Assembly: GCA_021812805.1 (NCBI GenBank)
Contig: JAKAMQ010000008.1
Span: 1 to 36,100 of the forward strand
Reading direction: 5' to 3'
DNA length: 36,100 bases
From: Acidobacteriota bacterium
Lineage (GTDB): Bacteria; Acidobacteriota; Holophagae; Holophagales; Holophagaceae
Below are positions 6,079 to 18,880 of this stretch, piece by piece. The notes under the pieces were generated by a model. That model searched no databases. It had not been told where the DNA came from and saw only the letters and a list, made by a program, of their open reading frames with translations. How positions within the stretch are numbered: the stretch's first letter is position 1; each line of letters starts with the position of its first letter. A program made the translations under genes and the position numbers.

Positions 6079-8828
6079 GGGCCTCCGGTGCGCTTGGGAA
6101 CACTGCACGACTTACGCACCGGGCCCGAGGGATCTACCTGCTGCTTCTCCCTATCCTGGTTGGGGCGCAGCAGCCACCTCGCCGCTTCGAGGTGCAGGTC
6201 AGACCTGCGGACATGATCTTCCGCTTCGCCCCCACCGTGGACATCCCGGGCCTTCCGAAGGTGGCCCTGGTACTGAGCGGTGGTGGCGCACGGGGCATCG
6301 CCCATGTCGGCGTCATCCAGCGTCTGGAGGAGGTCGGCTATCCCATCGCGAGCGTCACCGGCACCAGCGCCGGATCACTGGCGGGGGCACTCTTCGCCAG
6401 CGGTTTCTCCGGTGCAGAGATCGAAGCCATCTTTCAGCGCCTGAACCTGGGCCAAGCGGCCCTGGACCCCCTGCGCCGAGAGCCAGGAACCACACTGGAG
6501 GAGCAGGAGAAGGCGAACGATACCTTGGTCACGGCAGAATTCGACCGAGGGACCTTCCTGGCGGCCCAGAGCCTCCGAAGCGGCCGTGCCCTGCGCCACA
6601 TCCTCGAGCGAATGCTGGCCCGGGCCACCTACTATTCCGGAGGCGACTTCGATCACCTCCGCTTTCCGCTGCGAGTGCTGGCCACGAATTTCACCACAGG
6701 GGAAGGGAAGCTCTTCCGGCAAGGTGACCTCGCCCAGGCCGTCCAGGCCTCCATGTCCATTCCCGGGGGTTTCCGCCCGGTGATCGTGGAAGGCCAGCCC
6801 TATGTGGATGGGGCCCTCGTGGAGAACCTCCCCGTGGAAGAGGCGCGGAAAGCCTTCCATCCCGACCTGGTTCTGGCCGTGGACGTCAGTGCCACCGTGC
6901 GGGAGGCTCCTCCTAGCAACTTTTTCGCCATTGCCACGCGCAGCCTGGACCTGATGGTGGACCGCCGCCAGCGGGAGAGCCGCCGCCATGCCGATCTGCT
7001 CGTGCGGGTGGACCAGCCGGATGTTCCTTTCCTGAGCTATGCCGGCCTCATGCCCCGCCTCATCGCCGATGGCCGGGCTGCCTTCGATGCGGTGGCCGAC
7101 GCCTTCAACCAGCGTCTCCTACAGTCCCTGGGGCGCCAAGCGCGCCTTCCGATCAAAGAAGTTGCCATCGATTGCGACGGCGCCCTCCCCGAGAACCTTG
7201 AGGTCCTGCGTCGCCGCTACCTGGATGTCTCTCATCTCATCCGGGAGCAGGATGTTCTGGTCTTCCTCCAGCAGGCCCTCGTCCACGGCTGGGCCCGCCA
7301 GGCCTGGGCCGACCTGCCTTCGGACCATCCGGGCCGGCTTCGGGTCCATCTGCGCCTCTACCCGGAGGTCCGCTCGGTCGCGCTCGAGGTCCCGGCCCCC
7401 TGGCGTCCCCTAGTCGAACGCCGGCTGGCGGCAAGGATGCCCGTGGGAGCCCGGTTCAATCCCGAGGCCTTCGGTGCGGTCCTCAGTGGCACGGTGTTTG
7501 AACTGGTCATGCAGGGCCACCCCCTGGTCGATCTGCGGGGTTCGGGCTTCGATGGGGATACCGGAATCCTAAGAGTCCAGGTGAGGGAACCGGAACTGGA
7601 CCACCTCCAAATCCAGCCAACCGCGAGCCGGACCCCGATGGATGCCCCCGGCATCCGAGTCGCCCTTGAGCCATTGCTGGGACACCCCTTGAACGCGGAT
7701 CACCTCCAGGCCCGCATGGACCTCGCCGCCGCGCGTTTCCATCTGGAAGGCCTGGGGTGCTCGGTTCTGCCCGCCGGGGATGCCACCGGCGCCCGTCTGG
7801 TGGTGGCGCCGCGCCATCTCCCCCGCCACCGGTTGGATCTCTCCCTTGGCTATGAAACGCACCTGGGCGGCCAGCTCGGACTCGCCTACCTGGGGCGCGA
7901 CCTGGTGGGCACAGGAACGGAACTCGAAGTCAGCGCCGCGAAGAACCGGTTGCAGGAAGCCCTGGATCTGGACTTCCGCCGCAGCCTCTCCACACGGACC
8001 GAAACCGGCCTGGAAACGGGTCTTTCCGGCTGGAGCCAGCGCCTGGACGAATCCGAGGCCCTGGCGACCGGGGATCTCCTCTCCCGCTATCCGGGCACGA
8101 CCCTGCGCGTGGGGGAAGTCCATCTGGGGGCCTATGCCCGCTTCGGTGGGAGTCAGACGGGGAAGGCCACTTTGGCTCTTTCCCGCCGGGAGGTGGCCTT
8201 CACCGGCCAGCCCGGCCATGCGATCCAGACCGCCGCCACCCTGGATGCGGGGTGGGACAACTTCGACCGTCACACCCTTCCCACGCGGGGACTCCTCCTG
8301 CGGGGAAAAGTCAGCGCTGGCCGGACCGACACCCCCACGCCCACGACCTTCACCCAGGCCTACCTGCGAGCCAAGGGGCTGCAACCCCTCACCAGAACCC
8401 TGGGGCTGGATCTCGATCTGGAGGGGGCCACCGCCCGACGGCTGCCCCTGGATCGGTGGTGGCTTCTCGGCGGGCCCGGCTTCGTGCTCGGCAGCCTCCC
8501 GCTCAGCTACCTGGCCCCGACCTTCGCCGTGGCGAGGGTGGGCCTGCCTCTCCACTTCCCGACGGCCATGGGCCTCATCCTGGAAGTGGAACCCCGGTTC
8601 GATCTGGCCCGGGTGGCACCCTCGACCGCCGGCCTCTGGCAAAGCGGCAGCTACCACCAGTCTCAGGGTGCAGGCTTGCTGCTGCGCACCACCCTGATCG
8701 GCCCGTACTACCTGGAGGCCTCGTACGGCTGGCGGAGCAGACGCGGGCCTGCGGGATCCCTTCCTTCCGACCGCCAATTCACCCTGGCCTTCGGGACCCA
8801 GCCCTTCGACCTCTGGCGCCGCCGCTGA
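6075..8828 (+). CDS. Patatin-like phospholipase with C-terminal POTRA/BamA-like beta-barrel (PlpD/type Vd-like)
   Basis: GGGARGIAHVGV, GTSAGSLAGALFASGFS, DGALVENLPV patatin motifs; C-terminal half reads as an Omp85/surface-antigen barrel (LDLSLGYETHLGGQLGLAYLGRDLVGTGTEL...FTLAFGTQPF). ATG at 6075 overlaps lgt stop; the listed ORF start at 5763 is an upstream extension. Confidence 0.88.
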   Translation: MRASGALGNTARLTHRARGIYLLLLPILVGAQQPPRRFEVQVRPADMIFRFAPTVDIPGLPKVALVLSGGGARGIAHVGVIQRLEEVGYPIASVTGTSAGSLAGALFASGFSGAEIEAIFQRLNLGQAALDPLRREPGTTLEEQEKANDTLVTAEFDRGTFLAAQSLRSGRALRHILERMLARATYYSGGDFDHLRFPLRVLATNFTTGEGKLFRQGDLAQAVQASMSIPGGFRPVIVEGQPYVDGALVENLPVEEARKAFHPDLVLAVDVSATVREAPPSNFFAIATRSLDLMVDRRQRESRRHADLLVRVDQPDVPFLSYAGLMPRLIADGRAAFDAVADAFNQRLLQSLGRQARLPIKEVAIDCDGALPENLEVLRRRYLDVSHLIREQDVLVFLQQALVHGWARQAWADLPSDHPGRLRVHLRLYPEVRSVALEVPAPWRPLVERRLAARMPVGARFNPEAFGAVLSGTVFELVMQGHPLVDLRGSGFDGDTGILRVQVREPELDHLQIQPTASRTPMDAPGIRVALEPLLGHPLNADHLQARMDLAAARFHLEGLGCSVLPAGDATGARLVVAPRHLPRHRLDLSLGYETHLGGQLGLAYLGRDLVGTGTELEVSAAKNRLQEALDLDFRRSLSTRTETGLETGLSGWSQRLDESEALATGDLLSRYPGTTLRVGEVHLGAYARFGGSQTGKATLALSRREVAFTGQPGHAIQTAATLDAGWDNFDRHTLPTRGLLLRGKVSAGRTDTPTPTTFTQAYLRAKGLQPLTRTLGLDLDLEGATARRLPLDRWWLLGGPGFVLGSLPLSYLAPTFAVARVGLPLHFPTAMGLILEVEPRFDLARVAPSTAGLWQSGSYHQSQGAGLLLRTTLIGPYYLEASYGWRSRRGPAGSLPSDRQFTLAFGTQPFDLWRRR

Positions 8829-9562: not shown

Positions 9563-10738
9563 TCACCGCACCAGGCCGGCCGCGCCCGCCAGCGCGCCCA
9601 GGCCCAGCACGAAGGCGGGATGCCACCGGAAGCGCAGCAGCAGGATCAGGGCGAGGAAGGCCAGCGCAATTCCGGAAAAGCCATGGATGGTGCCCTTGGC
9701 CAGAAGCAGGGCCGACCCGAAGATGAGGCCCACCACCACCGGCGAGAGACCTGCCAGCAGGTCCTTGGCCCGGCCCAGATCCTTCAGGCGGGTGTAGAAG
9801 TGGGACAACAGGCTCATCAGAGCCATGGCCGGGAGGAAGAGGGCCGCCGTGGCGACCAAGGCGCCCCCCACGCCCTGGACCCGGTAGCCCGCGAAGGTGG
9901 CCAGCACGGCGATAGGGCCCGGGGTGAGGTTGCTGATGGCCACGCCGTCCAGGAACTGCTGGGGGCTGAGCCAATGCAGGCGCTCGACCAGGCTCTGATG
10001 CAGGATGGGCACCAGCACGAAGCCCCCGCCGAAGAACACGAAGCCCACCTTCAGGAAGGTCCAGCCCAGGCCCAGCAGCGAGGACGCGGCCCCGGCGGCC
10101 GCAGGGGCGGGAAGCGCCAGCATCGCCGGAGCGGCGGGCGGGGAGGTCTCCGGCGCCTTCGAAGGGGATGGTCCTTTGGCCAGCCGGTCCCTGCCTAGCC
10201 AGAGGCCCACGGCGCCACCCGCCGCGAGGATGCTGAGGCTGTTCCATTTCAGGAGGGAGAGACCTAGCGCCAGGGCCAGCAAGAGGATCGCGGGAAGGGT
10301 GCGCACCGCCTTGCGGCCCATGGACCAGGCGGCGCTCAGGATGAGGGCGATGACCACCGGCCCGAGCCCGTGCAGGGCCGTCTGGAGCGCGGGGATTGAG
10401 TGGAAACTGAAGTAGAGCCAGGAAAGCAGGATCACCAGGATCACGGAGGGCGCGAGAAACGCCGCCGCGCAGGCCAGCCCGCCCAGGAAGCCGAAGAGCC
10501 GGTTTCCCACGAAGAGCGAGGCGTTCACGGCGAAGGGGCCGAGGATCTGCCCCAGGGCGACGCCATGGAGGAATTCCTCGAGATCCAGCAGTTTCCGCTT
10601 CCGGACCAGATCGTGCTCCATGAGCGCCACCACCGCCATGCCGCCCCCGAAGCCGATGGCCCCCAGGCGGAGAAACAGCCACACCAGCTCCCGGAGGCGG
10701 GGAGCCGGCCTGGACGCGGGATCGGGAGGGATCAGCAT
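9563..10738 (-). CDS. chrA: Chromate transporter (two-domain CHR family)
   Basis: FLRLGAIGFGGGMAVVALMEHDLV and the duplicated second half FLKVGFVFFGGGFVLVPILHQSLVERLHWLSPQQFLDGVAISNLTPGPIAVLATFAGY. Confidence 0.92.
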   Translation of the reverse strand: MLIPPDPASRPAPRLRELVWLFLRLGAIGFGGGMAVVALMEHDLVRKRKLLDLEEFLHGVALGQILGPFAVNASLFVGNRLFGFLGGLACAAAFLAPSVILVILLSWLYFSFHSIPALQTALHGLGPVVIALILSAAWSMGRKAVRTLPAILLLALALGLSLLKWNSLSILAAGGAVGLWLGRDRLAKGPSPSKAPETSPPAAPAMLALPAPAAAGAASSLLGLGWTFLKVGFVFFGGGFVLVPILHQSLVERLHWLSPQQFLDGVAISNLTPGPIAVLATFAGYRVQGVGGALVATAALFLPAMALMSLLSHFYTRLKDLGRAKDLLAGLSPVVVGLIFGSALLLAKGTIHGFSGIALAFLALILLLRFRWHPAFVLGLGALAGAAGLVR

Positions 10739-10753
10739 GGCGCTCCAGGGACC

Positions 10754-11929
10754 TCAGGGCAGCAGGTACTGGATTTCGGCGGTGAGGGCGTGCCGGGCCT
10801 GGATGCGTTTCAGGGCGGCCATCTGGGCCTCCAGGAGCTGGCGGCGGATGGGGAAGGCCTCCGAGGGCTGGTCCTGGCCCGAGGCCAGCCGTGCTTCGAC
10901 GGTGGCGAGGGCCCTCGAGAAATCGGGCACCGGCGTCACCTCCGAGGCCTTGCGGAAGCGGTACCACACCCCCAGGATGCGGGCGTCCAGCTCGGCCAGG
11001 GCCTGCCGCAGCTCCCCCCGGACCACCCGGATCTGAGCGTCGATGCTCTGCTTCAGGACGGCGCTCTCCCCCGGCCGGGGCAGCCGAACGGAGACGCCGA
11101 GCCGCAGGATGTGGTCCTCCGCCTCGGTGCCGTAGCTCGTCCGCAGGCTCCAGCGGGCCTGGGCCTGGGCCTCCTTCAGGCGCAGGCTCCGGGTCTCAAG
11201 GTCCGCCTGGGCCTGGAGGGCGCGCCGCAGCGGCCCCTGCCGGAGCCGGACCTGGATGTCCTCCTCGGGCACCGGCTGAACTACCCCGGGATCCGCCAGG
11301 GGCACCGGGGTGGCGGGCACATCGGCGAGGGCCACAATCGCGGCCCAGGCTTCGGCCATGCGCGTGCGGGCCTCGTCCAGATCCTGCTGGGCCTTCATGC
11401 GCTCGCCTTCCACCAGGTCCACCTGGTAGGCGGGTTCCTTCCCGTCCCGTGCGCGGCCGCGGGTGACCTCGAGCCAATGCTCCACCGTGGCCAGATCCGC
11501 CTCGCGGAGTGCGAGGGTGCGCTGGGCCAGCCAAGCTTCCAGGTAGCCGAACTTCACGCGGAGGGCCGCCTCCCGCCGGGCCGATTCCGCCAGCAGGGGG
11601 TGGGCCTGGCCGAGGCTGGCCTCCAGCTCGCCGCGAACCCGTGGCGCCAGGAAGAGGGGAAACTCGATCTCGGCGGCCTTGTCCGTGTAGGAGGGCAGGC
11701 CCGAGGGCCTCCGCGCGGCGCCCTCCAGGGAGACCGTCGGCCCCTCCCGGAGGAATCCCCGGGTGTCCTGGAGCTGCATCTGGAGGTCGGCGAGCCTGGA
11801 TTCCAGGCGGTACTGCTCAGTGGTCGGCCGCACCCGGGCGAGGAGGTCGGCATAGGAAAGCGGAGCCTGGGCCGCAGCAGGAAGGGCGAGCACCGCCGCC
11901 AGGACCCACGGGGAGCGGGGACGTTTCAC
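10754..11929 (-). CDS. TolC-like outer membrane efflux protein
   Basis: Signal peptide, LSYADLLARVRPTTEQYRLESRLADLQMQLQDTRGFLREGPTVSLEG; coiled-coil-rich OEP-like sequence; ATGA overlap with the upstream ferredoxin gene. Confidence 0.7.
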   Translation of the reverse strand: MKRPRSPWVLAAVLALPAAAQAPLSYADLLARVRPTTEQYRLESRLADLQMQLQDTRGFLREGPTVSLEGAARRPSGLPSYTDKAAEIEFPLFLAPRVRGELEASLGQAHPLLAESARREAALRVKFGYLEAWLAQRTLALREADLATVEHWLEVTRGRARDGKEPAYQVDLVEGERMKAQQDLDEARTRMAEAWAAIVALADVPATPVPLADPGVVQPVPEEDIQVRLRQGPLRRALQAQADLETRSLRLKEAQAQARWSLRTSYGTEAEDHILRLGVSVRLPRPGESAVLKQSIDAQIRVVRGELRQALAELDARILGVWYRFRKASEVTPVPDFSRALATVEARLASGQDQPSEAFPIRRQLLEAQMAALKRIQARHALTAEIQYLLP

Positions 11930-12561
11930 AGTTTGACCTCATTCACCAACACGAACCCGTTGCGGCGGGCCAGGTCGCGGAGGAGGGGCAGAAAGGCCTG
12001 GATGTCCGACTGGCCCGTGGAGACCACGTCGAACCGCATGAAGGCGGGCGTCTTCTCCGCCAGGCCCTTGGCGGTGGGCACGTGGAGTTCCAAGTCCACG
12101 AGGTCCATGGGGTGGTCGGCGATGAGTTCCTGGAGTTGAAGGAGGAAGTGCTTGTCGCCGAAGGCCCCGGCGATCTCCAGGCGGGTGCGGCAGGTGAGGC
12201 GGCTGAGCGCCTCCTCCGCAGTGGCCCGGGCCTTCTGGGCCTCCTGCTTGCTGCGCTTGGTCTTGGCCTCCTTCTTCACGACCTGAAGGATCTTGTGCTC
12301 TCGCTCCACCCGGCGGACCAGATCCCGATCCGCGAAGCGAATGGCGTCCGTGGGGCACACCATGGCGCAGGTGGTGCACCCTACCATGCAGGCGTAGGGT
12401 TGAGTGACAATGGCCTTCCGATCTCTGATGTCATAGACGCCCCGGCCACAGGTGACGTAGCAGAGCTCGCAGCCGATGCAGGCTTGGAGATCCACGATGG
12501 GGTACCAGGGCACCTCCTCGCGGGGAATGCCGTGCCAGCGTTCAGGGGTGGGAATGGACAT
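11926..12561 (-). CDS. 4Fe-4S ferredoxin-domain protein with additional C-terminal domain
   Basis: CIGCELCYVTCGRGVYDI and CMVGCTTCAMVCPTDAI; start taken as MSIPTPERWHG (12561). ORF track extends upstream to 12705, overlapping the CDF gene. Confidence 0.85.
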   Translation of the reverse strand: MSIPTPERWHGIPREEVPWYPIVDLQACIGCELCYVTCGRGVYDIRDRKAIVTQPYACMVGCTTCAMVCPTDAIRFADRDLVRRVEREHKILQVVKKEAKTKRSKQEAQKARATAEEALSRLTCRTRLEIAGAFGDKHFLLQLQELIADHPMDLVDLELHVPTAKGLAEKTPAFMRFDVVSTGQSDIQAFLPLLRDLARRNGFVLVNEVKL

Positions 12562-13519
12562 GGCTTGTCTCTTTTGATGCACGGCCGTGATGCGTTTGAG
12601 GATCGACTTCTGAGTGGAGGAGGCAGTCTCCGCCCGTGACGGACTCGACCTGGATCGTGGCGTGATCGATGTGACAGTAGTGTTCGAGTCCATGAGCCAG
12701 GTCATGCACCAGGGCAGCGGCGTCAGTCTCGGGTTCGGCCACCAGATGCACGCTCAGGGCGGTGGAGGTGGTGGAGATCGCCCACACATGAAGGTGGTGG
12801 AGATCCCGCACACCGGGGGCCTCCAGCAGCAGTGTCCGGACCTGGCCCAGATCCACGTCCGCGGGGACGGCGTCCAGGGATAGATCCAGAGCGCTCCGGA
12901 ACAGGGGCCAGGACTGGACCATCACGAGAATGCCCACGACGAGCCCGATGGCCGGATCCAGCCAGAGCCATCCCGTGAGCAGAATGCCGATCCCTCCGGC
13001 CACCACCCCCAGGGAGACGGCAGCATCGCCCATCAGATGCAGGAAGGCTCCGCGCACATTCAGGTCCCCATGGCTGCCGCGGAGGAAGAAGAGGGCGCTG
13101 CCCAGGTTGATCAGGGTGCCCAGCCCGGCCACCACGATCATGGTCATGCCCTGGGAAGGCTCGGGGTGCCAGAGGCGCTGGAGGGATTCCCACAGAATGC
13201 CCCCCGTGGCCGCCAGCAGGAGCATCCCGTTGACCAGCGCCGCGAGGATGCCCGCGCGCCGGTAGCCGTAGGTGCGCCGTGCCGTGGCCTGCCGCCCCAC
13301 CAGCCAGGCCGCGAACCAGGAGAGCCCCAGGCCCAGCACATCCCCGAAGTTGTGGGCGCCATCCGCCACCAGCGACAGGGAGTGGCTGCGCAGGCCGTAG
13401 ACCACCTCCACCAGCAGGAAGGCGGTGTTCAGGAGGATGCCCGCCAGGAAGGCCCGGTTCATGGCCTCCGGAGCTGGTGCATGGCCGTGAGCATGGCCGT
13501 GAGCATGGTCGTGGCTCAT
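12542..13519 (-). CDS. Cation diffusion facilitator (CzcD/ZitB-like)
   Basis: His-rich N-terminus (MSHDHAHGHAHGHA), SLSLVADGAHNFGDVLGLGLSWFAAWL, RRTYGYRRAGILAALVNGMLL, HLMGDAAVSLGVV. Confidence 0.94.
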   Translation of the reverse strand: MSHDHAHGHAHGHAPAPEAMNRAFLAGILLNTAFLLVEVVYGLRSHSLSLVADGAHNFGDVLGLGLSWFAAWLVGRQATARRTYGYRRAGILAALVNGMLLLAATGGILWESLQRLWHPEPSQGMTMIVVAGLGTLINLGSALFFLRGSHGDLNVRGAFLHLMGDAAVSLGVVAGGIGILLTGWLWLDPAIGLVVGILVMVQSWPLFRSALDLSLDAVPADVDLGQVRTLLLEAPGVRDLHHLHVWAISTTSTALSVHLVAEPETDAAALVHDLAHGLEHYCHIDHATIQVESVTGGDCLLHSEVDPQTHHGRASKETSHVHSHP

Positions 13520-13953
13520 GGGTGCCTCGGTGAATGTTGGATGTCAAATACGGTGCCCCCCATCTGGACGGCAGCCTCCAGATCCTTGAGCCAGACACAC
13601 TCTAGGTTCCGATAATGATGGGCCTTCCCGGCGCCGTATCCACCCCAGGCCAGGAGCAGGATTCCCACCCCGGACGCGCTCCACCGGAGGAGCAGGATGC
13701 GCGGCCAGTCGGATGGGAGCAGGAGGGCTGCGGCCAGCAGGAGGAGCCCCACGATCAGGGCCGCGACGGCACGCCGCCGCCAGGGCCGGATCAGACGCTC
13801 GCGGACGGTCTGGCGGAGATCCCCGATCAGATCCATCTGCTCATCCCGGTTAAGGCTTCCCTGGGTCCGTTCGATCTCCAGTTTCTCCACGGCCTGTGCC
13901 AGGCGGCCCGTGTAGTCGTCCAGGTGCGCGGCGAACTCCTTGATGGTGGTCAT
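13516..13953 (-). CDS. Small membrane protein of unknown function
   Basis: 145 aa, MTTIKEFAAHLDDYTGRLAQAVEKLEIERTQGSL... with two predicted TM helices; 4-nt overlap with CDF gene. ORF-track start at 14640 is an unrelated frame extension over the FmdE-like gene. Confidence 0.75.
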   Translation of the reverse strand: MTTIKEFAAHLDDYTGRLAQAVEKLEIERTQGSLNRDEQMDLIGDLRQTVRERLIRPWRRRAVAALIVGLLLLAAALLLPSDWPRILLLRWSASGVGILLLAWGGYGAGKAHHYRNLECVWLKDLEAAVQMGGTVFDIQHSPRHP

Positions 13954-13979: not shown

Positions 13980-14600
13980 TCAAGCTTTGGATGGGGCGGC
14001 GGCCGAGCAGGGGATGCAGAGCCTTCGATCGCCCTGGGTGCGGCCATAGGCCGCCACGGTCACCTCGCCGCAGTGCTCGCAAAGGAAGATGTCGAAGGTT
14101 TCTCCGCTGCCGACGATGACCGGTCCCGATTCCACCTCGCCCACCTTCAGGAGCTGCCCCACGGGCGCGCTCATAACCCTTTGGATCAGGGGCTCCACAA
14201 CCTCCGAGGGGACCTGAGAGGCAGGTACGCCCTGCCTCCGATAGTCCAGAAAGAAGGGGCTCTGTCGCGAACCCATCTGCGCCTCCGCCCGGGGAGCCAC
14301 GCGCACCCGGCGCCCTGTGGCGCGGTCCACCAGGGTCAGGCCGAACTTGCCATAGCCCAGCTTCCGGATGTTGCCCTTGCCGAAGGTGCAGCCGGTGATC
14401 ATCTGCACGCCATCGGCGAAGCAGTGCGAGCAGTGGCCGTCCCCCAGCTCCAGGATGGCCTCGAGCTGGCCATCTGTGGATCGGGCGACACCCAGGGCAT
14501 CCAGCGCCGCAGCGCCGGCCCGCAGGCCCAGGGGCATGGCGGGGCACTTGTGGCCATGGAGAAGCTGTCCCGCGGAGAGGAAGGCGTGGGGATCGGTCAT
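13980..14600 (-). CDS. FmdE-family protein with C-terminal zinc-ribbon
   Basis: HGHKCPAMPLGLRAGAAALDALG, DGHCSHCFADGVQMITGCTFGKGNIRKLGYGKFGLTLVDRATGRRVRV, and CEHCGEVTVAAYGRTQGDRRLCIPC. Confidence 0.85.
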   Translation of the reverse strand: MTDPHAFLSAGQLLHGHKCPAMPLGLRAGAAALDALGVARSTDGQLEAILELGDGHCSHCFADGVQMITGCTFGKGNIRKLGYGKFGLTLVDRATGRRVRVAPRAEAQMGSRQSPFFLDYRRQGVPASQVPSEVVEPLIQRVMSAPVGQLLKVGEVESGPVIVGSGETFDIFLCEHCGEVTVAAYGRTQGDRRLCIPCSAAAPSKA

Positions 14601-14676
14601 GGGACTCCCGGCGCGGCGTGGTTTCAGCCGCCATGCACAAGATCCGCCCACCCCAGGCTGCGGGCCTTGTCTTGGA

Positions 14677-15609
14677 TCAAGTCCGGTCGGAATCCATCCC
14701 CGAAGCCAGGTGCCGGAGTGCGTCCAGCCGAATCACCTGGTACTTGCCCGGGCCCAGGCGGTGCAGAACGCCCCTGCGCACCAGCAGGGCCAGAGCCCGG
14801 GACAAGGAAGCGGGAGTCAAGCCGATGGCATCCGCGAAGGCCTGGGAGGTTCCAGGGATGGCGACCATGGGGTAGGGGCCGCCGGGCACGAGAGGTTCCA
14901 GGGCCGAAGCCACCCGGTTCACAGCGCTGCGGATGGAGAGATGTTCGATCGTGTCGAAGGCCTTGCGGAGCTGCCGCGCCAGGAGCGCCAGGAGCGCCAT
15001 GCTGATGCGGGGATCCTTCATGGCGGCTTCGAGGTCCTGGCGATGGACGATCCGCACGCGGGAGGCCTCCAGGGCCTCCACACTGGCGGGATAGCCCACT
15101 CCATCGAAGAAGGGCGCGAACCCCAGCACATCGCCGGGTCCGAACCGGATGAGGGTGGCGTTACGGCCATCCTCGAAGGTCCGGATGGCCCGGAGCAGCC
15201 CGTGTTCCACCTGCACGAGCCGATCTGCGGGATCTCCTTCGTGCCAGAGGAATCCGCCCTTGCGCAGGGGCACCGTCCTCGCATGGGCTTCGAGCAGGCT
15301 TATGAACGCCTGAGGGCCGCTCATCGAAACAGGAGAAAGGGCAGATGCGGGACGTGCGGGAGCGCGGACCTCGATGGCGAATTGTCCGGTTCGGGTCAAA
15401 CGGATGGCGCGGGCGCGTCCGGGTTCCAGCGCCACCAGACCTTTGGCCTGGAGGCGCCCGAGGTACTCGCGTGCGGAGGCAGCCGTGGTCCAGCCCAAAG
15501 CGGCGGCAAGCTCGCGCAGTGTTGGGGGCAGTCTGTCGCCGGGCCAACCTCCCAGGACATGAAGCACCCGGGATTCAGTGGCGGTGAGAGCAGATCCAGA
15601 CTGGGCCAT
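14677..15609 (-). CDS. CRP/FNR-type regulator with extra N-terminal LexA-like winged HTH domain
   Basis: N-terminal ALTATESRVLHVLGGWPGDRLPPTLRELAAALGWTTAASAREYLGRLQAKGLVALEPGRARAIRLT resembles LexA DNA-binding domain; then cNMP-binding-like GGFLWHEGDPADRLVQVEHGLLRAIRTFEDGRNATLIRFGPGDVLG and C-terminal HTH QAFADAIGLTPASLSRALALLVRRGVL. Confidence 0.85.
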   Translation of the reverse strand: MAQSGSALTATESRVLHVLGGWPGDRLPPTLRELAAALGWTTAASAREYLGRLQAKGLVALEPGRARAIRLTRTGQFAIEVRAPARPASALSPVSMSGPQAFISLLEAHARTVPLRKGGFLWHEGDPADRLVQVEHGLLRAIRTFEDGRNATLIRFGPGDVLGFAPFFDGVGYPASVEALEASRVRIVHRQDLEAAMKDPRISMALLALLARQLRKAFDTIEHLSIRSAVNRVASALEPLVPGGPYPMVAIPGTSQAFADAIGLTPASLSRALALLVRRGVLHRLGPGKYQVIRLDALRHLASGMDSDRT

Positions 15610-15744
15610 ATAAAAGTATGGTCCACTTCGAACCCCATGCGCGATCCCAGATGTGATCCGTTCCACCCCGGTTCCGCAGAACCCGGAGAGGCGGGCGACT
15701 ACCATGGACATGCGGCCATGGACGTAGGTTGCAGCAGGTTCTGG

Positions 15745-16170
15745 ATGATCAGGGACACGCACCAGACATTCTCGCCGGAGCGCCGGAAGGCGCTCCGGCA
15801 CGGAATCCTGTTCCTGTGCGGCGCGTCCTTCGCCGGGGCCTTGGTGGCCATGCTGCGGGAGGTCCGCACCCGGCAGGAACCTGAAACGGTCCACCTCCCC
15901 CCGGATCTGGCGGAGGGGCTTTCCATCGAAGGCCCGGTGATCGTCTTCCGCGAGGCCTCCGGTCAGCTCCTCGCCTTCTCCAGCCGCTGCACCCACCTGG
16001 GCTGTCGTCTGGACCGCATCCAGGGCGGAGAGGCAGTCTGCCCTTGCCACGGCTCACGTTTTCATCCAGACGGATCTGTGGCCCAAGGGCCGGCCTCGCG
16101 CCCGCTCCTCCCCGTGAAACTTGAACCGGACGGATCCTCGGGGGGATGGATCGCCCGTGTCCAGTCCTAG
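15745..16170 (+). CDS. Rieske [2Fe-2S] protein
   Basis: CTHLGCRLDRIQGGEAVCPCHGSRFHPDGSVAQGPASRPL canonical Rieske motifs; one N-terminal TM. Start uncertain (15718 also possible). Confidence 0.92.
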   Translation: MIRDTHQTFSPERRKALRHGILFLCGASFAGALVAMLREVRTRQEPETVHLPPDLAEGLSIEGPVIVFREASGQLLAFSSRCTHLGCRLDRIQGGEAVCPCHGSRFHPDGSVAQGPASRPLLPVKLEPDGSSGGWIARVQS

Positions 16171-18880
16171 ACCCACACCCCTCGCAACCCCCTGGGGCAC
16201 TCTGGGGGACTTGGCCACGGCATCCTTCGTCCTGGCGGCCCTCACGGGCGCGGTCCTGGCCATTCCCTACGACCCCGCGAACGCCTACGGATCCATCGCC
16301 ACCCTGCTTCTGGCCAACGCACCCGGCAGCTTCTTCCGCAACCTGCACTACTGGTCAGCCCAGTTCTGTCTGGTGTTGTCGGTCCTGCACCTCGCGGATC
16401 ACCTGTGGCTGAGCACCGAAGGCAGGGTTCGACGCGGCGCATGGCTTCGACTCACCTTGTCGCTGCCGATCCTGGTCTACCTCATGCTGAGCGGATTCCT
16501 CCTCCGGGGTGATCTGGAAGGCCAGCAGGCCCTGCGCATCGTCTCCCAGATCTTGGGTCAGGTCCCAGTCCTGGGTGCGCCGCTGGTCACCCTCCTGTTT
16601 GGCCGTGGGGGGCGCCTGGACGTGGTGTACGTGCAGCATGCGGCCACGGCCACGATCCTGGTGTGGCTCTTCATCCAGGAGCACACCCGCCGGCTCTGGC
16701 CCCGCCCGGCGGCCTTCCTGGCCGCAGGCCTGGCCGCAACGCTTCTCTCCCTGGGGTTTTCGCCGGGCCTCCACGACGGCCTGGATCCCATCGTCAAAGG
16801 CCCTTGGTACTTCCTGGGTCTGCAGGAGATCCTCCACTGGACCCGCTGGCCAGTCCTGGTGCCCTTCACCATCGTCCTCCTGGTGGCCATTCTCTACGCC
16901 ATTCCTCGATTGAAATCCCCCTGGGCCCGGCGGGCCAAGTGGACCCTGCTGGGGCTGGGCCTGGTGTACGGGGGGCTTTGCGGCGTGGGGGGCGTGTTAC
17001 GTGGAGAATCCTGGAGCTGGGGCCCCGCCTGGCCCCGGGGGGGCGGGAACCTCCAGGTGGGCTGGGTCTTCGCGCGGACGCCTGCTGCGCCAGTGCCTCT
17101 GCCTCTGGTGCAGGGGCACCCCGAAGGCTGCCTCGTCTGCCACGTCGGCATGACCGGCCTCGGGAACGCGCATCGACCCGAAGCCGTGGGCTGTGCATCC
17201 TGCCACGGCGGGAATCCCCTCACCCTGCAGAAGAGCAGAGCCCACGCGGGCATGATCCGGATCCCGGGCAACCTGGCCGACGCCGCCCGAAGTTGCGGCA
17301 CCTCGGCCTGCCACGCCGAGATCATCCCCCGGGTGGATCGATCCGTGATGACCACCATGGCGGGCGTGGTGGCCGTGGACCGCCATGCTTTCGGGGAGGC
17401 CCCCGCCCCTGGGGGCGGAATCCCCAAGGTGGCCGCCCTGGGGCACAGCCCGGCGGACACCCACCTGCGGCAACTCTGCGCCGGCTGCCACCTGGGCACT
17501 CCCAAGGAGCACCTGGGCACGGACACCGGAGACACCCCCGGCGGCGGATGTCTGGCCTGCCATCTGGTGTACAGTCCGGCGGCACAGAAGGCCCTCGCAA
17601 CGGATCAGCGCCAGCGGAGCACGGGGCGCGCAGAGGCCCCCAAGGTGCATCCGGCGCTCTCCCTGGACCTGGACGATGGGAAGTGTTTCTTCTGCCACAG
17701 CCGCTCTGGGCGGATCTCCCTCGCCTATGAGGGCTGGATGGAGCTGCAGGATCCCCCGGACAGTCTGCGCGGCACTGCCGACCAGATCAGCGGCCGGTAC
17801 CGCACCCTGGCGGATGACCGCGTGCTCGAGCGGATCACGCCCGACATCCACCAGGAGAAGGGCATGGCCTGCGTGGATTGCCACACGGCCACGGAGGTCA
17901 TGGGGGACGGTACGACCCACGCCTTCAAGCGGGAGCAGGTGCGCCTCGCCTGCCAGGACTGCCACAGCCGGCCCGGACAGCCGCTGCCCTCCCTGCCCCT
18001 GAAGGCCCTGGATCCCGAATCCCGAAGGCTCCTGGTCCTGCGGGCCTGGCCGGGTGGCACCCCCCAGCGCTTCATCCGAACGGAGCGCGGAGAGGCCCTA
18101 GTGAACGGCACTTTCGACGAGACGAGCGGGCGGCCCATGTTGATCCGCAAGAAGACGGGACAGCGCCTGCCCCTCTTGTCCCAGATCAGCGACTGCTCGG
18201 CCCCCGCTCATGCCCGCCTCGCCTGCGGCGCCTGCCATACCGCCTGGACCCCCAGTTGCGCCTCTTGCCACACCTCCTTCGACCGCACTGCAGAATCCTA
18301 TGACTGGATCGCCCGCAAGGATGTAGCCGGTGCCTGGGTGGAGACCTCCCAGGCCTTCGAGGCCCGTCCGCCCACTCTCGGCATCCAGGCGGGCGAACCT
18401 GGCGGCCAATCCACGGTCCAGACCTTCGCGCCCGGCATGGTGATGACCCTGGATCGCCCCGGTGTGCCGACCACCTTCCAGCGCCGCTACGCGCGGAGCG
18501 AGCCCCACACCACCACTCGGAGATCGCGCCCCTGCGCCTCCTGCCACAACGATTCCCAGGCCCTGGGCTATGGCCGGGGGCAGCTCCGCTTCGCGGCCAC
18601 GGGCCGGGACGGGCGCTGGACCTTCATCCCTGCCTTGCCTCCGGGCCCCGATGGGTTGCCCGCCGATGCCTGGATCCCCTTCCTCGGCACCCGGACAGAA
18701 CCCGTGTCCACGCGGCTGGACGTGCGGCCCTTCAGCGTGGATGAGCAACGCCGCATCCTCACCGTCGGCGCCTGCCTCACCTGCCATGATGGCGCGTCCC
18801 ACGTCATGCGGAATTCCCTTCACGACTTCAAGGGGCTCCTGGCGCGCCGCAGCCCACGTTGTCGCCTACCGGTCTGGTGA
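16157..18880 (+). CDS. Cytochrome b (b6/subunit IV-like) fused to multihaem cytochrome c domain
   Basis: N-terminal cyt b-like TM region (NLHYWSAQFCLVLSVLHLADHLWL, VQHAATATILVWLFIQEH, IVKGPWYFLGLQEILHW) followed by 11 CXXCH motifs plus one CX4CH (CGTSACH). GTG at 16157 preferred over TTG at 16121; overlaps Rieske gene. Confidence 0.9.
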   Translation: MSSPRPTPLATPWGTLGDLATASFVLAALTGAVLAIPYDPANAYGSIATLLLANAPGSFFRNLHYWSAQFCLVLSVLHLADHLWLSTEGRVRRGAWLRLTLSLPILVYLMLSGFLLRGDLEGQQALRIVSQILGQVPVLGAPLVTLLFGRGGRLDVVYVQHAATATILVWLFIQEHTRRLWPRPAAFLAAGLAATLLSLGFSPGLHDGLDPIVKGPWYFLGLQEILHWTRWPVLVPFTIVLLVAILYAIPRLKSPWARRAKWTLLGLGLVYGGLCGVGGVLRGESWSWGPAWPRGGGNLQVGWVFARTPAAPVPLPLVQGHPEGCLVCHVGMTGLGNAHRPEAVGCASCHGGNPLTLQKSRAHAGMIRIPGNLADAARSCGTSACHAEIIPRVDRSVMTTMAGVVAVDRHAFGEAPAPGGGIPKVAALGHSPADTHLRQLCAGCHLGTPKEHLGTDTGDTPGGGCLACHLVYSPAAQKALATDQRQRSTGRAEAPKVHPALSLDLDDGKCFFCHSRSGRISLAYEGWMELQDPPDSLRGTADQISGRYRTLADDRVLERITPDIHQEKGMACVDCHTATEVMGDGTTHAFKREQVRLACQDCHSRPGQPLPSLPLKALDPESRRLLVLRAWPGGTPQRFIRTERGEALVNGTFDETSGRPMLIRKKTGQRLPLLSQISDCSAPAHARLACGACHTAWTPSCASCHTSFDRTAESYDWIARKDVAGAWVETSQAFEARPPTLGIQAGEPGGQSTVQTFAPGMVMTLDRPGVPTTFQRRYARSEPHTTTRRSRPCASCHNDSQALGYGRGQLRFAATGRDGRWTFIPALPPGPDGLPADAWIPFLGTRTEPVSTRLDVRPFSVDEQRRILTVGACLTCHDGASHVMRNSLHDFKGLLARRSPRCRLPVW

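Follow-up and report, generated by a model that had tools for sequence, protein, structure and literature searches.

A LexA-type winged helix-turn-helix fused to a CRP/FNR-type regulator, with a candidate operator at its own start codon, in Holophagaceae

The CRP/FNR proteins are a very large and well-studied family in which one DNA-binding head is the rule. In a 36,100-nucleotide stretch of DNA (the window) from a soil/sediment bacterium of the Holophagaceae (Acidobacteriota), one gene appears to encode two: a winged helix-turn-helix (wHTH) resembling that of LexA, and a C-terminal CRP-type HTH. Is this a genuine fusion, and which DNA would each head read? A conserved natural fusion to a LexA-type head would illustrate how second DNA specificities are acquired by regulators and, here, would point to a protein that may control metal/chromate efflux in the Holophagaceae.

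The regulator gene (positions 14677–15609, minus strand, as are the parts of the gene, its upstream elements, and its downstream neighbors given below) is one open frame of 310 amino acids, from an ATG at 15609 to its stop. The N-terminal LexA-like wHTH (amino acids 8–74; 15388–15588), with a recognition helix at ~43–55 and a wing at ~59–71, was delimited by Pfam, AlphaFold, fold search, and purifying selection. It is followed by a linker (amino acids 75–98; 15316–15387) that is fast-evolving by dN/dS and, from its pLDDT, probably disordered; by a cNMP-binding-type β-barrel (amino acids 99–199; 15013–15315), placed by Pfam, AlphaFold, and alignment to CRP; by a long, dimerization-type C-helix seen in the AlphaFold model (amino acids 200–240; 14890–15012); and by a CRP-type HTH, assigned by Pfam (amino acids 232–301; 14707–14916) and conserved residues, which overlaps the end of the C-helix. 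LexA_DNA_bind (PF01726; amino acids 26–68, 1.1e-10), cNMP_binding (PF00027; amino acids 114–198, 2.5e-16), and HTH_Crp_2 (PF13545; amino acids 232–301, 1.1e-12) all lie above their curated Pfam cut-offs in the window protein, and all three are matched in 12 of 12 intact family members. The single frame with these three parts, as described in the initial annotation, thus holds, and so does its claim of two DNA-binding domains within one CRP/FNR-like protein, which Pfam, AlphaFold, and fold search support. The fusion of a LexA-type head to a CRP protein is real and conserved.

Searches of the PDB with phmmer divide the protein in the same way. LexA entries span residues ~7–77, with the E. coli LexA DNA-binding domain (1LEA) matched at residues 7–74 (E=1e-4), and CRP/FNR chains span residues ~103–305. 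Among NCBIfam models, solely sub-threshold pieces of CRP/FNR proteins and positions 22–70 of the LexA model were matched; the S24 peptidase part of LexA is absent from the window protein. The LexA model TIGR00498 scores 39.4 bits against a cut-off of 110.95, its match being confined to residues 25–73. The protein accordingly has the sensor barrel and C-terminal HTH of the CRP/FNR family together with a second DNA-binding head per subunit at amino acids 8–74, and has the LexA-type wHTH while falling below the LexA cut-off and having no self-cleaving S24 domain. No description of this architecture was found in the literature, and it is apparently undescribed so far.

The window frame stays open far upstream of its ATG, and the start was therefore checked in relatives. 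In two of them, L032 and L034, the conserved ATG is preceded by an in-frame stop at distances of 5 and 10 codons, respectively. The dN/dS of the wHTH ranges from 0.02 (against a 94% identical relative) to 0.41, whereas that of linker residues 75–98 is 0.77–1.0 in all comparisons except two (one saturated, one between near-identical copies). These close upstream stops, the contrast in dN/dS, and the presence of LexA_DNA_bind in all 12 members indicate that the wHTH is translated and under selection as a domain, and that its tether is loose. That translation begins after the wHTH, named in the initial annotation as evidence that would count against the fusion, or that the wHTH belongs to a separate, unrelated frame upstream, is almost certainly wrong. 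An internal methionine does occur at about residue 95 of the window protein, but it is not conserved; an internal start is ruled out by the stops and by selection on the wHTH, and a chance frame overlap by the occurrence of the domain in 12 members.

AlphaFold, run on a 12-row alignment, predicted the wHTH in the full-length protein, with helices at 10–20, 31–38, and 43–55 and strands at 59–62 and 68–71. The N-terminal domain modeled alone was also a winged helix, and across the models the first helix was placed at 10–21 as well and the strands at 59–61 and 69–71. The remainder of the full-length model consists of a linker (pLDDT <50 at amino acids 81–96), a β-barrel, a 41-residue C-helix, and the C-terminal HTH. 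The overall pTM is low (0.43), so the relative placement of the domains carries no meaning. For the N-terminal domain, the first fold match was the LexA-DNA complex 3JSP (TM 0.73 by query, 1.8 Å), with 1LEA third and MarR- and DtxR-type winged helices close behind; the whole model matched CRP/FNR structures. The possibility raised earlier that the N-terminus does not fold as a wHTH is thus contradicted by the models.

Members of the regulator family are 36–94% identical; 8 of 77 Holophagaceae genomes, belonging to two genera, have full-length matches. Of the 12 intact members, three are in G346; G000 (in the window and on contig C61), G300, and G331 have two apiece, and G011, G019, and G034 a single one. 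A broken copy in G349 (L076, contig C93) is interrupted by frame disruption and stop codons and is located just upstream of a ChrA gene. In a profile search of a sample of 396 Acidobacteriota genomes, full-length members scored 461–525 bits, after which scores dropped to 150 bits or less; hits outside the family covered essentially the CRP part alone, and no evident wHTH precedes the non-fused CRP relatives inspected among the matches listed. Plasmid sequences likewise matched the CRP part alone, and a search of viral contigs returned no match to the regulator. The protein is most likely a lineage-specific regulator in which a flexible linker connects a LexA-type wHTH with an entire CRP/FNR-type protein.

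The start of the gene overlaps a candidate autoregulatory operator, CCATAC-TTTT-ATATGG (15606–15621), one mismatch from CCATAC-N4-GTATGG. In the seven copies of clade A, the regulator starts at CCATAC-TTTT-GTATGG or a near variant, the final ATGG of which holds the start codon, and when the seven upstream regions are aligned, this palindrome is the sole invariant block upstream of the gene. The window copy is imperfect and as a dyad on its own is not significant (P=0.40), its support coming from conservation. Exact CCATACN4GTATGG occurs in 4 of the 77 family genomes, each time at the regulator gene only. In G331, CCACAC-N4-GTGTGG occurs exactly twice, at its two regulator copies, which are ~37% identical. 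Two copies in G346 have CGAAC-N4-GTATG and CGAAC-N4-GTGCG, and the third CCCAC-N4-GTGTG. The pattern CnnAC-N4-GTnnG is exact at 9 of 12 regulator promoters, the other three having the same dyad with one mismatch, against a background rate of 0.015 per 100 bp; as the sequences that were scored had also served to define the pattern, the independent evidence is the conservation and uniqueness of the palindrome. A wide regulon was considered and rejected: exact palindromes are found at the regulator gene only, and one-mismatch sites are overall no commoner than those of a reversed-pattern control. The resident LexA has a gene of its own, and derivation of the palindrome from its operator was also rejected, no such dyad being evident in the sequence upstream of lexA. 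Upstream of lexA at L089, L090, L091, and L093 (also L092) lies a promoter-like stretch, AAAAAAAAGGGATTGAC, and farther upstream in the first four of these is a conserved AGTATGSCAGA element.

The position of the palindrome relative to the start of the gene suggests how it may act. A -10-like hexamer, read by eye, lies ~5–7 bases before the ATG in 12 of 12 members (CATACT, TAATGT, TAGTGT, TAGTCT, TATCCT, and similar); in the window, the possible -10 element is CATACT, five bases before the ATG (15615–15620). No convincing Shine-Dalgarno sequence is present at the 12 regulator starts, and the regulator transcript is probably leaderless. The center of the palindrome shifts from -4 in clade A to about -20 in the other clades. 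From these positions we infer that the operator lies over the -10/start region in clade A and just upstream of the -10 element in the others; in either type it would be expected to block RNA polymerase, which argues for autorepression.

Which head would read this site? The Gram-positive LexA box is GAAC-N4-GTTC (PMC3323433). The palindrome shares with it the N4 spacing and the inner AC, and CGAAC, found in two members, contains GAAC. FNR- or CRP-type half-sites fit poorly. The LexA-box-like spacing and half-site, together with this poor fit, point to the N-terminal head as the reader of the palindrome. The recognition residues of both HTHs vary between clades together with the operator, a covariation that does not prove which head binds. 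Binding of the palindrome by the C-terminal HTH, as in FNR-type proteins, with the wHTH as an added specificity or cooperativity module for another site, is unlikely, though it has evidence in its favor. FNR sites also have N4 spacing; S270 and R271, which align with conserved CRP/FNR recognition positions, are invariant; and the clade whose operator has ACAC instead of ATAC carries Glu rather than Ala where CRP has E181. Against it, CATAC/CACAC in register agree by eye with the FNR half-site TTGAT at a single base (A) and with the LexA half-site CGAAC at C..AC, and only weak matches to TTGAT-N4-ATCAA lie near the palindrome. We consider it slightly less probable still that one head alone binds DNA, the other being kept for dimer contacts or being lost. 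CRP/FNR proteins normally need one HTH, and the position of CRP E181 is Ala in clade A, including the window protein, but purifying selection acts on both heads, and each has invariant residues: in the N-terminal head, R47 of the recognition helix and R67 and R70 of the wing; in the C-terminal head, S270 and R271 of the recognition helix.

These invariant residues, along with a weak, tentative second site, leave room for the bivalent DNA binding suggested in the initial annotation. The site is a pair of CRP-like half-sites, GGTGG-N6-TCACA (15652–15667), located ~50 bp upstream of the ATG in the window and in its 94% identical relative L038, and ~60 bp upstream in L032. It was not found upstream of the other family members, and no second operator conserved in all members was found. 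A bivalent dimer, with LexA-like heads on the start-codon operator and CRP heads on the CRP-like site ~46–57 bp away in helical phase, might either loop the DNA and repress the metal/chromate efflux operon or activate it in the manner of CRP, as switched by a ligand bound in the CRP core, an arrangement we regard as rather improbable. The looping first proposed, in which a single dimer would connect the promoter of the efflux/FmdE genes with that of the divergent Rieske/cytochrome genes, is more doubtful again. With two HTHs in each chain and a linker that is long and flexible, it would be feasible, and the distances of the half-sites in the window and L038 differ from that in L032 by about one helical turn. 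However, the divergent Rieske/cytochrome b neighbor is found in the window and L038 only, other members having different upstream genes; L032 has the same half-sites next to a different upstream gene; there is no second palindrome before the Rieske gene; and the one invariant noncoding element is the start-codon palindrome. Looping between these operons thus does not stand as a conserved function of the family.

The CRP-like core appears to sense something other than cAMP. The cAMP contacts R82, S83, T127, and S128 of CRP align with Y173, P174, A217, and F218 of the window protein and are therefore replaced. CRP E72 lies opposite a gap; in the alignment with Thermus CRP, the GE motif corresponds to G163–F164, placing F164 at the Glu. 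The set of cAMP-binding residues of CRP is thus not found in the window protein, nor are the ligands of the N-terminal cysteine cluster of FNR: the window protein and seven other members have no cysteine, one member has one, and three have three. With its cAMP contacts replaced and no cysteine, the window protein probably has a ligand other than cAMP and no FNR-type Fe-S cluster; heme, an oxyanion, and a metal are possible candidates.

Downstream of the regulator, the window encodes in order an FmdE-family protein (13980–14651), a small predicted membrane protein with no Pfam match (13516–13953), a CDF cation efflux transporter (12542–13519), a 4Fe-4S ferredoxin-like protein whose true start is probably inside the frame (11926–12705), a weakly matched outer membrane efflux protein (OEP; 10754–11929), the chromate efflux transporter ChrA (9563–10738; TIGR00937 above cut-off), and an HD protein. 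Efflux genes adjoin nearly all regulator copies, although their content varies. OEP-MFP-RND clusters lie beside the regulator in L031, L033, L034, and L071; L032 has FmdE followed by OEP and RND, L069 ChrA-RND-MFP, L070 ChrA, and L074 FmdE-ChrA. At L075, the copy at 11440 has FmdE and ChrA upstream on the same strand and the copy at 6913 has RND; in G019, ChrA is on the same strand, beyond RND and the gene that follows it. Two RND permeases tested were below the cut-offs of both heavy-metal and drug subfamilies. ChrA occurs in 7 of 8 regulator-positive family genomes and 16 of 69 regulator-negative ones (Fisher P=0.0007, in a test that ignores genome relatedness). With neighbors this varied, several metals or oxyanions, or else a redox signal, are possible inducers.

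On balance we lean towards a self-regulating local repressor of metal/oxyanion efflux, with the LexA-like head on the palindrome and a non-cAMP CRP pocket as sensor. The CRP part would dimerize, placing two LexA-like heads on CnnAC-N4-GTnnG over the -10/start region of its own gene. The regulator would repress itself and a downstream efflux operon comprising combinations of OEP-MFP-RND, ChrA, FmdE, the 4Fe-4S protein, and CDF, and the signal would release this repression. The C-terminal HTH probably still binds DNA, perhaps contacting a second, weaker site near the promoter. The candidate operator is unique in the genome, so the assignment of head to site is directly testable.

Known systems resemble this protein in parts. 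CRP/FNR proteins (FixK, DNR, and Thermus CRP-like regulators) share its barrel, long C-helix, and C-terminal HTH (aligned over amino acids ~103–305), whereas the regulator has an extra N-terminal LexA-like wHTH with linker, and replaced cAMP contacts; unlike FNR, most members have no cysteine and thus no FNR Fe-S site. The SOS repressor LexA has the same N-terminal wHTH by profile, fold, and the P-G-R-x-R-A-I-R-L wing, and its Gram-positive box resembles the candidate operator in spacing and in the CnnAC pattern of the half-sites; without an S24 domain, however, RecA-triggered autocleavage is not expected of the regulator. In Ochrobactrum tritici, ChrB, the regulator of the chr chromate-resistance operon, has a promoter inverted repeat that overlaps the -10 element next to chrA (PMC3817168), a likeness to the arrangement here. 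ChrB was not among the family hits of the regulator, whose sensor is a cNMP-type domain.

Several further features of these loci were observed. The second fusion copy in the window's own genome (L031; contig C61, 5251–6165) is ~66–68% identical to the window copy, has the same palindrome, and adjoins an OEP-MFP-RND-4Fe-4S cluster; the two copies might engage in cross-talk. The FmdE-family protein is repeatedly linked to ChrA and the regulator (in the window, L032, L038, L074, and L075); the L032 protein carries a dksA/traR-type zinc finger at its C terminus, as does, by a weak match, that of L038. Directly after the Rieske gene (15766–16170), a 919-amino acid frame (16121–18880, plus strand) begins with a membrane domain of the cytochrome b type and continues into a multiheme c-type cytochrome region, which makes for an unusual electron-transfer unit of the bc type.
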